This document shows, piece by piece, positions 1 to 40,817 of a stretch of 45,999 nt of DNA. The notes under the pieces were generated by a model. It was not told the origin of the DNA. It saw nothing but the letters and a program-made list of their open reading frames with translations, and ran no database searches. The position numbers and the translations under genes were made by a program. Position 1 is the stretch's first letter. Each line of letters starts with the position of its first letter. Source of the DNA: Lachnospiraceae bacterium (GTDB taxonomy: Bacteria > Bacillota > Clostridia > Lachnospirales > Lachnospiraceae); NCBI GenBank assembly GCA_017450065.1, contig JAFSYI010000010.1, positions 1-45,999 of the forward strand, given 5' to 3'.

Positions 1-2
1 GA

Positions 3-830
3 AGACAAATAGCAGAATGTCAGATGGTATTTGGCGGGTTGCCATATTTTTTTAGCCTGTTGAATCCGGATGAGAGTCTGAATTGGAATATTGATGCATT
101 GATATTCAAGCCTCACGCTTTACTGCGTCATGAATCAAAGAAACTTCTGGAGGCAACGTTAAAAAAGTCGGCGGCATATAATACTATAATGGAATGCCTG
201 TCTTCCCATCTTTATGGTATGACAAAGGCGGAGTGCTTTGAAAGTCTGGATATATCTCAAGGAACGTTTTCCAGGGCTGTGGATGACCTTGTGAAATGCG
301 GATATGTGCATGAGAGCGTAGATAATTATTCGAAAGGGCATCCATTAAGACTGCAGCTTGTGGATCCGTTTCTGCTGTTTCATTATAAATTCCTGACCAA
401 TGGCATATCCGAAAAGACAAGATTTGAAAATTTTAAGAGCGACACCGGAAAGTATACGAATTGGCGTGGACATGCTTTTGAGATACTTTGCATGTATCAT
501 ATAGATAGCATTAAGAATGCTTTGGGTATATCGGGAGTACAAACTAACGAGTATGCATGGGTCAGCGAAAAAAATGAAGCTCAGATAGACTTGTGCATAG
601 AACGGGATGACGGGATAATAAACCTCTGTGAAGAAAAATATACTGATACTGCTTTTTCTGTCAGTCCGGACTATGAGAAAAATTTATTAAAAAAGAGAGA
701 TATTTATCGTAAAGAAACTAAAACTGATAAGGCACTTAAAATTGTAGTTATATCAGCTGAAGATATAGCAGGAAAAGCCAATACGGAACATATTACAAGA
801 GTCTTGACATTAGATGATTTGTTTATATAA
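3..830 (+). CDS. AAA-family ATPase, C-terminal part (DUF234-type), cut by window start
   Basis: The reading frame is open to the first base, so the N-terminal P-loop half lies outside the window. What is visible begins with RQIAEC and GGLPYFFSLL, the helical lid that follows the ATPase core. A winged-helix stretch follows (SLDISQGTFSRAVDDLVKCG), and then a C-terminal domain with QIDLCIERDDG and CEEKYTD, arranged like a PD-(D/E)xK nuclease fold. This order is that of the archaeal/bacterial AAA plus DUF234 family, common in Lachnospiraceae and archaea and of unknown cellular role; nuclease or toxin-like activity has been suggested for related families only by fold. An in-frame ATG at 24 is not the true start. 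The family call is good, the function is unknown. Confidence 0.75.
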   Translation, partial: RQIAECQMVFGGLPYFFSLLNPDESLNWNIDALIFKPHALLRHESKKLLEATLKKSAAYNTIMECLSSHLYGMTKAECFESLDISQGTFSRAVDDLVKCGYVHESVDNYSKGHPLRLQLVDPFLLFHYKFLTNGISEKTRFENFKSDTGKYTNWRGHAFEILCMYHIDSIKNALGISGVQTNEYAWVSEKNEAQIDLCIERDDGIINLCEEKYTDTAFSVSPDYEKNLLKKRDIYRKETKTDKALKIVVISAEDIAGKANTEHITRVLTLDDLFI

Positions 831-2955: not shown

Positions 2956-3147
2956 AACTTCAAGTTTGTCGGGATGAACGATAGAGCGTTATCTCGAAAT
3001 ATAATGAACTAAGAAATCATAGGAATAGATGGTAGTTCAACCGAATTTCAATATATATACAATGGTCTTGATTTTCTTTCCCAATAAACTCTTTTTTCTG
3101 AAATGTATTATAATGGTTTAAGAACTTGAACCAAAGGAGGACGAAAG
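2956..3147. other. Non-coding spacer
   Basis: No convincing gene is visible. A TATAAT-like hexamer at 3109-3114 could be the -10 region for the arsR remnant that follows; no good -35 region is seen. Confidence 0.4.
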
Positions 3148-3272
3148 ATGCACACAAAAAAGAGTTTATGAAATTATCGGCAGACTTTAAGGAATGTCGC
3201 GACGTACTTGTAGCATTAGGTGATGAGAAACTTAGGAAGATTATCTTTCAGAATAAAACATTAAAATCGTAA
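3148..3272 (+). pseudogene. ArsR-family regulator remnant, frameshifted and truncated
   Basis: An ideal AAAGGAGGACGAAAG precedes the ATG at 3148, but that frame stops after seven codons (MHTKKSL). Adding one A to the A6 run at 3154-3159 continues the frame as EFMKLSADFKECRDVLVALG and then DEKLRKI, the N-terminal helix of ArsR-type winged-helix repressors. The frame stops at 3272, before the recognition helix. So there is both a slip in a homopolymer and loss of the DNA-binding half. A flavodoxin gene follows, a pairing often seen in clostridia. Confidence 0.55.
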
Positions 3273-3453
3273 TGCAGACCAAATTGAAAATGAAACCAAT
3301 GATCGGTGCAACAAAGCATTTATTCCACGGTAAAAGCTTTCTCTTCTTTTTACAAAATTCTTTAGTTGTGATATGATTTAGACGTCTTTGTCTTATAGCA
3401 CGGGGCAGATAAGAAACGTGCAAGGACAGTAGGGCTCATTACGGAGGGTCAGG

Positions 3454-37710: not shown

Positions 37711-38202
37711 ACTATGCACTAATGCCGATCCTTGCTTCCGGTCATGTGGATAAGATCTGTATCGTATGACTTTCTGAAGGCAAACAAGGAAATGCATTCA
37801 GAAATCATGCGTTCCGCATGACACGGTCCTGCTTTTAGCAGAACCTGGTCGAGTACGAATCCCGAATTTCTGATGAAATTCAGGATTCTATGCGCAGATG
37901 AATGGTGTGATGAGATAATAAAGGATGCGGAATCATCCGGTTTGGATACAGGGAAGATAATGGGATTTACACAGGCCAGTGATACAAGGCAGCTGTCAAT
38001 ACTGAACGGATTTCGGTATATATTGGATATGAATACGTCAGAGTGCAAAGATGATCCAGAGTCGGAGGACTCACCGGATACAGTGATCATACATGATGCG
38101 GCCAGACCATTTCTTACAGAAGACCTGCTTGACAGATGCTATAGTGCATTAAGTGAGGATGGGGACACAGAATTACAATATTGGAAGAGTAACAGATATT
38201 AA
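37707..38202 (+). pseudogene. IspD/TarI-like cytidylyltransferase, interrupted by a repeat
   Basis: The frame begins MNYALMPILASGHVDKICIV and is stopped at once by an inserted family C repeat (37769-37888). It resumes as CADEWCDEIIKDAESSGLDT and continues through DTVIIHDAARPFLTEDLLDR, the conserved HDAARP motif of IspD-type CTP transferases. Removing the insert and one TATG rejoins IV and CADEW in frame. It also lacks the N-terminal nucleotide loop (deletion after MNYAL) and the end after SEDGDTE. The gene was once translationally coupled to the Rieske gene. Confidence 0.8.
37769..37888. repeat. Repeat family C, copy 2, inserted in ispD-like gene with 4-bp duplication
   Basis: A 120-base insert flanked by TATG on both sides (37765-37768 and 37889-37892). 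It is the reverse complement of the copy at 33571-33690 with long identical stretches. It carries the same chain of hairpins. The empty site can be deduced from the homologous fragment at 35022, which reads straight through GTATGCGCAGATGA. Confidence 0.85.
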
Positions 38203-38226: not shown

Positions 38227-39018
38227 ATGTGGTATGTGATACAGGTAAAAAGCGGAGAAGAAATGAGGATGAAAACACTGCTTGATAAGCTCGGAACAGA
38301 GGGAGCTTACAGGGAGTGTTTTATTCCTATGTTTGAGGATGTGAGAATAAGCGGCGGGAAATGCAGGATAGTGTTCAGAAGACTTTTCCCCGGATATATC
38401 TTCGCAGACAGCGATGATCCGGACAGGCTGTTTGAAACCCTGAAGGGGATCCCGGATTTTACAAGATTGCTTGGAACTTCAGAAGCGGACGGAAACAAGG
38501 TTTTCATACCGGTCGGGGAAGAAGACCAGGAATTTATGATGACAATGTTTGAAGACGGTCTTATGCATATAAGCTATGTGCATATGAACAGGAACGGAAG
38601 GATCGACAAGATCGCGGGACCGCTCAGCAATTACCGCAATCATATAACCAAGCTTGAGCTAAGGCACAGGATGGCCATTGTGGAAGCTGAAATGTTCGGA
38701 AAGAAACGTAAGGTGAAGTTCGGCTTCTTTACAGATGATGATCCGGAGCTGCCGGAGATAGTCAGGCTCAAGAAAGATATCACGAACACGGATAACACAG
38801 GGGACGTACTGGACGGAATGGTGGAATTAGACATTGGCATCCATCCGGGAGATAAGGTCAGGGATGACACAGGTATATACGGAGACCAGATATTTACGGT
38901 TGAGAGGGTGGACCTAAGGCGCAGGACCGTTATATCGACCATTGAAATGTTCGGTACCGGTGCACGTATTGAACTCAGAGCTGATGAAGTTACTAAGGTT
39001 GGTGAAGCTGCGGATTGA
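38227..39018 (+). CDS. loaP: LoaP-type NusG paralogue (antiterminator)
   Basis: A 263-residue protein. The NGN domain starts at the first residue (MWYVIQVKSGEEMRMKTLLD, CRIVFRRLFPGYIFAD, IPDFTRLLGT), a middle segment has GPLSNYRNHITKLELRHRMA, the region around the end of the NGN domain, and a C-terminal KOW domain begins near IHPGDKVRDDTGIYGDQIFT. It is longer than housekeeping NusG (about 180), as specialised paralogues are. LoaP proteins antiterminate long polysaccharide or antibiotic operons. It sits at the head of the window's glycan block, where such genes normally act on the genes that follow. Confidence 0.85.
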   Translation: MWYVIQVKSGEEMRMKTLLDKLGTEGAYRECFIPMFEDVRISGGKCRIVFRRLFPGYIFADSDDPDRLFETLKGIPDFTRLLGTSEADGNKVFIPVGEEDQEFMMTMFEDGLMHISYVHMNRNGRIDKIAGPLSNYRNHITKLELRHRMAIVEAEMFGKKRKVKFGFFTDDDPELPEIVRLKKDITNTDNTGDVLDGMVELDIGIHPGDKVRDDTGIYGDQIFTVERVDLRRRTVISTIEMFGTGARIELRADEVTKVGEAAD

Positions 39019-39051
39019 AAAGATGCAGGCACGATTCAACTAATTAAAAAG

Positions 39052-39080
39052 TTGACACATTCCGCATAATCCCTCATAAT
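39052..39080 (+). promoter_or_regulatory. Promoter of the HTH-HipA-like kinase gene
   Basis: TTGACA (39052-39057), 17-base spacer, CATAAT (39075-39080). The start site would fall near 39087, close to the first in-frame ATG. Confidence 0.75.
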
Positions 39081-39101
39081 GAAAATATGGGGGATCATGT
39101 T

Positions 39102-40373
39102 ATGAGGAATGAGCGTAATGCAGGAAGAAAGCCTAAGATTTCCAATGCCGAGATGAAGGATATAATCTTAAGGCATGAAGCAGGAGAGGGTATTCCTTCG
39201 CTTGCATCAGAATACGGGATATCAAGGCAGGCGTTGTATAAGAGACTTAAGGAAAGCAGCTATAAGCCCGTGAGTATTGAATACTATACTGCCGGTGAGT
39301 TGTGTACATTGATCGAGGTTGATTTTCGCAGGAATGATCTGCATGTAGTGAATTATGCTGTCGAGCTGTCGAGGCGGGCATTCGGATATATTGAGGACCC
39401 GGGATGGGATGATTTTCTGCGCTTCATTGAGGATTATTACCTGGATGCAAGCGGAAGAGACAGAGCCGGAGGTTACTTCCTGAGTGAGTGTGGGCGGAAA
39501 TATTCATTGGAGGATATCCCTCCGGATAACGGAGATAAACATCTGGTTATCAGAATGGAGCATGATCAGAAACTGCCGGTATTCAACTTTAATAAGAAAG
39601 AGATAATACTGACACGATCTGATACTGATGGGTTCCAGATGAAAGCCCTAACCTCGGATCGAAAATATTTTGTCAAAGCACAGGCAGTCATGTCCGGTGT
39701 TAAGCTTAATGACTGGGCGGTGGAGATTATTTCGACAGGTATATGCCGACAGCTGGGGATTCCCTGCGTGGAGCAGAAACACTGCAGGTTTGTTTACGGC
39801 GGCAGGGAATATGATGGAGTGTATTCACCCAATTTTGAGCTGGACGGGTATACGTTTATGTCTTTTGAGGGACTTCTTGAGAGGATGCACAGGTCGTCAA
39901 AGGAAGATAAATTCATAAAACTGGGGGCAATAGAGAAGCTTAAGTGGTGTGCAGCGCTGCTGTCCGAAGCAGGGAATATATCATATGAAGATACAGAGAA
40001 ATACGTTCTGGATCTTGCGGTGCTGGATTGCATTATTGGGAATGTTGACAGGCATACAAGGAATTTCGGGCTGTTTTATAACGTTCACACCGGAGAATTC
40101 GAAATACCTCTTGTGTTTGACAGCGGGATGGGACTTTTCGAGAATGATTCGTACAGGGATGAATACAGAACATTTGAAGAAGCGATGAACCATGTGTATG
40201 TTGCGCCATATGGGGAGGATCCGTTTGATATGCTGGAGCTGCTGGATAAGGAATACGGATTACGGTCAATATATGGAAACAAAGAGGGATTTATATACGG
40301 GGATGTGCTTAAGACGGAATTTGCATTGGAATACGAGAAGAGGATGAATGAATTATGGCAGAGGTCAGGCTGA
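39102..40373 (+). CDS. HTH domain fused to a HipA/CtkA-like kinase
   Basis: A 423-residue protein. Residues about 7-50 are a resolvase-like helix-turn-helix (GRKPKISNAEMKDIILRHEA, LASEYGISRQALYKRLKES). After an unrecognised segment comes a HipA-type kinase core: YFVKAQ with Lys192, the catalytic loop GNVDRHTRNFGLF with Asp316, His318 and Asn321, and the metal motif VFDSGMGLF with Asp340. HipA-like kinases phosphorylate proteins such as tRNA synthetases and are usually toxins paired with a separate HTH antitoxin; here the HTH is fused. The ATG at 39102 follows GGGGGATC; ATG 39087 coincides with the predicted transcription start. The next gene overlaps its 3' end by 19 bases. Confidence 0.75.
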   Translation: MRNERNAGRKPKISNAEMKDIILRHEAGEGIPSLASEYGISRQALYKRLKESSYKPVSIEYYTAGELCTLIEVDFRRNDLHVVNYAVELSRRAFGYIEDPGWDDFLRFIEDYYLDASGRDRAGGYFLSECGRKYSLEDIPPDNGDKHLVIRMEHDQKLPVFNFNKKEIILTRSDTDGFQMKALTSDRKYFVKAQAVMSGVKLNDWAVEIISTGICRQLGIPCVEQKHCRFVYGGREYDGVYSPNFELDGYTFMSFEGLLERMHRSSKEDKFIKLGAIEKLKWCAALLSEAGNISYEDTEKYVLDLAVLDCIIGNVDRHTRNFGLFYNVHTGEFEIPLVFDSGMGLFENDSYRDEYRTFEEAMNHVYVAPYGEDPFDMLELLDKEYGLRSIYGNKEGFIYGDVLKTEFALEYEKRMNELWQRSG

Positions 40374-40711
40374 TAAACAACCTTAAGGGAATACTTTATT
40401 ATCTAGATATGCCGCTGCTTGATTTTGAAATACGTAACAGGGAACTTGTGAGGGCAGTCGATTTAAATGAGGGAAAGCTGTTTCCTCCGGAGCTTGCCAT
40501 ATGGGGAATAAGCTATGGTAATATAAATGCTTTTTTTCAACGCCGGACCATGAAGGAAGGCTGCATGTTTTATCGTGAGCATCTTCGAGCTATAGGCATG
40601 GAGAGGTTTGATTTTGACGAGTATATAAGAAAGAACAATGGCAATAATAACGTTGACAATTATTGGATCCGCTTCCCGGACTTTGGCGCAAAGCGCTTCG
40701 GGGATCTGTAG
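40355..40711 (+). CDS. Small protein overlapping the kinase gene, candidate partner
   Basis: A 118-residue protein, MAEVRLINNLKGILYYLDMP onward, with a conserved-looking core (LLDFEIRNRELVRAVDLNEG, PPELAIWGISYGNINAFFQR, TMKEGCMFYREHLRAIGMER) and no membrane segment. It begins 19 bases inside the kinase gene in another frame, so the two are translated together. I do not recognise a family. By analogy with HipA-type loci it could be the antitoxin, a substrate-recognition or an inhibitory subunit; this rests only on gene arrangement. Confidence 0.7.
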   Translation: MAEVRLINNLKGILYYLDMPLLDFEIRNRELVRAVDLNEGKLFPPELAIWGISYGNINAFFQRRTMKEGCMFYREHLRAIGMERFDFDEYIRKNNGNNNVDNYWIRFPDFGAKRFGDL

Positions 40712-40772
40712 ACTCGCTGTTTGTCTGTGCTTATGTCAGTTGTTGATAAAGCTGTACATATGGTCAAGTATC

Positions 40773-40817
40773 AATGCAAGGATAGAACTCAGAGCTGATG
40801 ATGTAAGCAAGGTTTGA
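40773..40817 (+). pseudogene. 3' end fragment of a second loaP gene
   Basis: The frame codes NARIELRADDVSKV and stop, nearly the same as the end of the LoaP KOW domain (ARIELRADEVTKV at 38961-39000). Only the last 14 codons remain. The bases just before (40744-40770) loosely match the HVDKLYIV region of the ispD fragments, with a one-base shift. Confidence 0.6.

Follow-up and report, generated by a model that had tools for sequence, protein, structure and literature searches.

What does a HipA-like kinase gain from a DNA-binding domain at its own N-terminus and from a small gene that overlaps its 3′ end? The question is raised by a two-gene locus in a stretch of 45,999 nucleotides (nt), the window, from a Lachnospiraceae bacterium (assembly GCA_017450065.1, contig JAFSYI010000010.1, positions 1 to 45,999, forward strand). 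The long gene encodes a fused helix-turn-helix (HTH) and kinase protein, and the small one a protein of 118 residues. The original prediction, made from the sequence alone, proposed an undescribed toxin-antitoxin or regulatory module. We found that the pair is probably a toxin-antitoxin module of the Hip type whose domains have been rearranged. Coordinates are collected in Table 1.

Re-reading the open reading frames (ORFs) of the window confirmed the predicted positions of both genes and their overlap. The kinase ORF has an in-frame alternative start at 39087. We prefer 39102 because the −10 box ends at 39080, because a GGGGG sequence (39089-39093) sits 8 nt ahead of 39102, and because a Met conserved in the relatives aligns with it. 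Residues of the HTH, half-lid and motifs are numbered here from 39087 (P0001), and Lys192 and the residues listed with it follow the 423-residue protein.

The long protein has the features of the HipA-like kinase superfamily, namely a catalytic Lys, a DRHxxN loop, a Mg-binding Asp and a HipA_C fold. Its Pfam HipA_C match (E 6.4e-7, 29.7 bits) is slightly under the cut-off of 30.5. The residues previously named as a retained HipA catalytic set (Lys192, Asp316/His318/Asn321 and Asp340) are all invariant in a seven-row alignment of fused kinases, in which the sequence from L038 hardly differs from the window and is truncated by a contig end. Loss of these residues from most homologues had been named as evidence against the proposal; the alignment gave the opposite. 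We take RSDTDGFQ to be the Gly-rich loop, going by the motif order of Hip kinases, and FDSG is presumably the Mg-binding motif.

Between the HTH and the kinase core lies half of a lid domain. Residues 61-121 of P0001 align with the lids of split systems, in which lid and kinase are separate genes (hhalign probability 99%, E 3.7e-19, 61 columns), and the match covers the N-terminal lid half only. None of 100 column shuffles reaches this score. Lids that share one chain with their kinase give no hhalign match to the half-lid (11 of 100 shuffles score as high), and neither does the small protein of the same locus directly.

The small protein has no match in Pfam, NCBIfam, PADLOC or PHROGs up to E 1. 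Aligned as a profile, seven small proteins match ten one-chain N-domains (hhalign probability 95.6%, E 1.3e-8, 98 columns) and 17 split-system lids (84%, E 8e-6, 62 columns), and 0 of 100 column shuffles reach either score. By these profiles, the small protein is a member of a HipS-like lid domain family over most of its length, and it is linked to the half-lid of the kinase solely via the split-system lids. Given these matches, the kinase chain appears to hold a truncated lid, with a complete lid encoded downstream.

The predicted fold of the small protein is that of HipS and of HipA N-subdomain 1, with about 100 residues, a sheet, three to four helices and a closing strand. Lid profiles (A2, A3, A4, A8) did not match a profile of eight HipA N-domains significantly or above shuffles with hhalign, and profile searches of the PDB returned chance hits only. 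Sequence alone thus did not prove the link to HipS, which is based on the predicted fold and on where one-chain relatives carry the lid, namely in front of the kinase. On this modelling, the 118-residue protein looks like the detached inhibitory lid of the kinase. It had been described as a partner without a known family, but it falls in a HipS-like lid domain that is common beside Lachnospiraceae HipA-like kinases. No Pfam match over cut-off covers the lid region in the small protein or in 14 other lid-bearing proteins scanned, and the lid domain is a candidate new Pfam family.

The original prediction suggested asking whether the small protein always follows an HTH-kinase gene, and regarded its wide occurrence without the kinase as evidence against a module. 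We sought it in 397 genomes of the family, 391 of the class and 395 relatives (the sets overlap). Matches occur in six family genomes, namely that of the window, four close relatives (70-78% identity) and G302, with a distant match; G100 holds a second, distant match. Three class genomes have a match, that of G501 being distant, as do six of the relatives. The fused kinase, sought in genome contigs, was found at three loci. The small ORF is present at eight distinct loci (the window, G100, G153, G190, G252, L039, G788 (L069) and G810 (L040 = L068)). It lies behind an intact fused kinase in seven and behind a kinase remnant in the eighth; L038, where the kinase is present and the contig ends within the gene, was left out of this count. 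No close homologue away from a fused kinase was found in the three genome sets, so such a wide occurrence was not seen.

The two genes overlap by 19 nt in the window, L009, L039 and L069, by 23 in L010 and by 13 in L011, and are separated by 17 nt in L012, so that six of the seven intact loci have an overlapping partner gene. The genome that the two proteins come from is 88% complete and contains one match to each. It could be argued that the genes are unrelated and that their overlap is ordinary operon packing, since functional pairing is itself read from the sequence. However, the pair is kept at all eight loci (one with the kinase remnant), and the partner comes from a domain family that accompanies such kinases elsewhere. 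We therefore consider a chance association highly improbable, and the coupled two-gene module that had been proposed is supported.

Across six relatives, identity to the window is 69-83% for the small protein versus 49-67% for the kinase. The ratio of nonsynonymous to synonymous substitution rates (dN/dS) of the kinase is 0.08 against L069; in the remaining kinase pairs and in all small-gene pairs the silent sites are saturated, and dN is 0.11-0.49. On these values, both genes look constrained.

The better conservation of the small protein would also fit a self-regulated signalling kinase, similar to HipH/YjjJ and not a toxin, in which the small lid is an activating or substrate-loading subunit. 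As the kinase chain has only half a lid, a lid supplied in trans could complete the enzyme instead of blocking it. However, both stand-alone HipS proteins treated in PMC10627512 and PMC9325769 inhibit their kinase. The distribution is also patchy, with a match in only 6 of 397 family genomes and two of the seven matches distant. Moreover, the neighbours of the module, read from the sequence, differ between the window, L009, L011, L039 and L069, as is usual for toxin-antitoxin modules. A signalling role of this kind is therefore rather unlikely.

The locus with the remnant, L040/L068 (near position 160), has a deletion of 993 nt relative to the window (39051 to 40044). Its sequence jumps from the GTTGACA of the −35 box to a GTTGACA inside the catalytic codons. 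The promoter −10 box and most of the kinase are lost, and the small ORF is whole. Such a deletion is compatible with a harmful kinase. It is weak evidence, because the sequence comes from a metagenome assembly and because the promoter of the small gene is lost too.

How might the module be controlled? The promoter that had been proposed scores 11/12, and its block is conserved in relatives. A scan of 3.5 kb found five sites scoring at least 9/12 versus 8.7 expected, so the scan alone is not probative. Two putative operators, O1 and O2, overlap this promoter. The O1 block aligns in seven upstream regions, among which the window and L038 are near-identical, and is also visible in L069. In the 88%-complete genome it is the sole site at 0 mismatches, with one more at 3 mismatches. 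We rejected O1 as a good palindrome for seven of eight upstream regions; it beats shuffles in L010 alone (2/300) and is retained here as a conserved block. O2 is an inverted repeat, for which few of 300 dinucleotide shuffles are as good in L009 (0), L012 (0), L069 (1), L011 (2) and L039 (8). It is weak in the window (23/300) and not above shuffles in L038 (85/300), and L010 has no repeat of this type (156/300). We did not retain the reading of O2 as an RNA hairpin, as the left arm lies within the −10 box, ahead of the expected transcript start. We infer that the HTH of the kinase chain binds the putative O1/O2 region.

The analysis shows the gene structure, the invariance of the catalytic residues, the regular pairing at these loci, the homology of the lids across the family, a predicted fold like that of HipS and a conserved promoter block, whereas kinase activity, toxicity, neutralisation, DNA binding and any part in phage defence or dormancy are inferred. 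The long protein would be a HipA-like Ser/Thr kinase that arrests growth when free; kinases of this type are known to do so, and HipA and HipT target aminoacyl-tRNA synthetases. Its N-terminal HTH would bind the repeats over the −35 box and over the −10 box and Shine-Dalgarno sequence and repress the operon, so that the toxin itself would carry the repressor domain. The small gene product would be a free-standing HipS-like lid. By docking at the Gly-rich loop of the N-lobe it would block the kinase, and the full lid would be supplied in trans because the lid of the kinase chain is cut in half. This clamping is proposed by analogy with HipS on HipT. HipS inhibits HipT in E. coli by a Trp inserted near the active site (PMC10627512) and in Legionella by remodelling the P-loop (PMC9325769).

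A more specific and tentative version is that the wiring is inverted, with the repressor on the toxin and not on the antitoxin. The half-lid at the N-terminus of the toxin would be completed or displaced by the HipS-like protein in trans. Once the antitoxin is lost, the kinase would be free but the toxin would keep the promoter repressed, so that a one-way, self-limiting pulse would take the place of the usual derepression. We favour this less than the general toxin-antitoxin assignment and regard it as doubtful at present. A toxin that doubles as repressor would reverse the feedback that is standard in type II modules.

The module had been described as inserted in a glycan locus. Upstream of it are a NusG-family gene, which we take to be loaP, and a weak IspD-like fragment, and behind it is a repeat of the loaP 3′ end, which suggests that the module was inserted beside or into a copy of loaP. 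In one congener loaP occurs in the absence of the module, although its neighbours there are different. These observations bear out the proposed insertion only in part, and no clean empty site was found in 37 congeners searched with the downstream flank and loaP. The IspD-like fragment (37873-38202, adjoining loaP) has an E of 0.003, which is under the cut-off, and a longer IspD-like ORF can be read behind the module in L040. A near-identical strain (L085 (G806), 1-684, minus strand) carries a Phd/PIN (VapBC-like) pair, named by reading, upstream of its loaP, and the loaP spot may collect toxin-antitoxin genes.

We rejected a mobile origin of the module. The small protein has no relative among 50,697 phage records at E 0.01, and 74 pattern hits in viral contigs yielded no confirmed one. 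A plasmid search gave one weak match, to the kinase only, and the GC content along the locus has no step.

The viral searches also bear on the possibility that the module is a phage-defence device, in which the small lid would come off the kinase, or the HTH off the DNA, upon infection, and the kinase so released would cause abortive infection. The kinase core matches the PADLOC candidate phage-defence models PDC-M03A (best E 6.4e-12), and the Phd/PIN-like pair hints at a variable spot. However, PDC-M03A is a candidate family only, and its name was not found in the open-access literature. The absence of phage and viral relatives of the small protein also speaks against this role. Phage defence is thus somewhat unlikely as the explanation, although it is compatible with, rather than opposed to, a Hip toxin-antitoxin module.

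Table 1. Positions of the module and of associated features within the window
Feature	Position	Strand	Details
Fused HTH / half-lid / HipA-like kinase gene	39102..40373	+	423 residues; probable toxin and repressor, judged from sequence
Resolvase-type HTH (Pfam HTH_7)	39123..39251	+	E 2.9e-8, over cut-off; residues 13-55 of P0001
N-terminal half of lid domain	39267..39449	+	C-terminal half absent; hhalign to split-system lids
HipA-like kinase core	39570..40370	+	
Gly-rich loop (presumed) RSDTDGFQ	39615..39638	+	R177, D179, T180, G182, Q184 of P0001 invariant
Catalytic motif VDRHTRN	40044..40064	+	D321, R322, H323, N326 of P0001 invariant
FDSG motif	40116..40127	+	F344, D345, G347 of P0001 invariant
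Stand-alone HipS-like lid domain gene	40355..40711	+	118 residues; probable antitoxin, from sequence and predicted fold; 19-nt overlap with kinase gene
Putative operator O1	39036..39057	+	Near-palindromic conserved block TCAACTAATTAAAAAGTTGACA including the −35 box; upstream alignment
Sigma-70 type promoter	39052..39080	+	TTGACA-17-CATAAT, 11/12 matches
Putative operator O2	39070..39094	+	Inverted repeat, −10 box to Shine-Dalgarno; dinucleotide shuffles
Repeat of loaP 3′ end	40768..40814	+	47 nt, 79% identical to 38954-39000

The module is part of a wider set of kinases with lids in Lachnospiraceae. With the window kinase as query, 108 of the 397 family genomes have some match, many to HTH or kinase pieces only. 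Our own lid and kinase profiles, with duplicates removed by hand, gave 55 kinase genes, which occupy 54 distinct loci; these kinases were selected by our searches and do not represent a random sample. For 50 of the 55, a lid is present next to the kinase or in its chain, and none was seen for the other five (L022, L024, L032, L034, L057). Seventeen of the 50 have an upstream lid gene, usually with a DNA-binding part (none was seen in L029, which is cut by the contig start, or in L037). Four have an upstream lid gene without a recognised HTH (L008, L025, L027, L028), two a downstream lid gene (L007 and the second pair of L069), and 18 a single chain with the lid N-terminal to the kinase. The remaining nine are the family of the window, of which seven are intact, L038 has only the half-lid and L040 is the kinase remnant. 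Eight one-chain-sized kinases had been kept out of lid-profile building, and seven match the profile (L056, L058-L063; E 8.7e-21 to 1.5e-7); L057 does not.

Pfam identifies HTH_7 on L030 and L031 and an XRE-type HTH on L035, L036 and L050; further DNA-binding parts were assigned by visual inspection or from a match to P0001. In this set, the lid is the usual partner. DNA-binding parts are interchangeable (HTH_7, XRE type, perhaps MazE-like) and may be on the lid, on the kinase or absent. A tree of 44 of the 55 kinases, omitting fragments, near-copies and some one-chain forms, groups the family of the window as a single clade (support 100/100) that is distinct from the split and one-chain forms; the published HipJ, HipM and HipH are absent from it.

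Three further loci are of interest. In L041 (683-2052, minus strand), from the same class outside the family, a lid fused to a MazE/AbrB-like match under the Pfam cut-off lies upstream of a Hip kinase. L016 has an HTH-lid gene (1345-1989) with no kinase in the fetched stretch, and is an orphan of the split type. Directly behind the module in L069 (G788, same genus) are a second HipA-like kinase (2175-2981) and an overlapping lid-like gene (2956-3357; hhalign probability 58%, E 1e-4; lid profile E 2.6e-8).

Among the closest known systems are the Lachnospiraceae pairs in which a DNA-binding domain plus lid precedes the kinase, and the XRE-lid-kinase chains. They share the lid domain and kinase type with the window but differ in domain order, and their kinases group separately on the tree. 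As noted, the half-lid of the window kinase matches the lid of the split pairs and not the one-chain lids directly. We found no name for either form in the open-access literature. CtkA of Helicobacter pylori, another of these systems, is not known to have an HTH or a lid partner.

Ten Hip kinase organisations are described in the portion of PMC8262856 available to us, and an HTH plus kinase followed by HipS is not among them in that text; no other account of this arrangement was found in the open-access literature. The nearest organisations are hipJS, hipH, hipMP and hipBST. The hipBST system of E. coli O127:H6 (PMC10627512, PMC6581861) shares with the window a kinase core without a complete N-lid, a separate small lid protein of HipS-like fold (here predicted) and a DNA-binding component. 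It differs in having three genes, ordered HTH protein (HipB), HipS and HipT, whereas the module here has two, namely a kinase gene with a built-in resolvase-type HTH and, behind it, the HipS-like gene. In hipJS (PMC8262856), a kinase gene is also followed by a HipS-like gene, although HipS-likeness in the window is by predicted fold. However, HipJ is a short core kinase, and short Hip kinase families have 279-321 residues (PMC8262856), in contrast to the 423-residue chain with its HTH and half-lid. HipH/YjjJ (PMC8262856, PMC9948734), like the window kinase, is a HipA-like kinase with an N-terminal HTH, but it is monocistronic and without a lid partner (PMC8262856), unlike the overlapping gene pairs here. 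The hipMP module (PMC8262856) also has a resolvase-like feature. There, it is a separate, downstream putative antitoxin that resembles gamma-delta resolvases, and in the window it is HTH_7 at the kinase N-terminus.

The HTH-kinase fusion, which the original prediction singled out, is therefore not unusual in itself, given HipH/YjjJ and the XRE-lid-kinase chains. What is unusual is the combination and order, in which a kinase that carries its own HTH precedes the HipS-like gene. The toxin-antitoxin reading fits, but "undescribed" applies to this combination and order and not to the Hip/HipS-like kind, which is known. The module is probably a new arrangement of that known toxin-antitoxin kind. 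With it, the Hip kinases gain a distinct clade and gene order, and a set of Lachnospiraceae kinases and small proteins that are poorly named is linked to the HipS-like lid.
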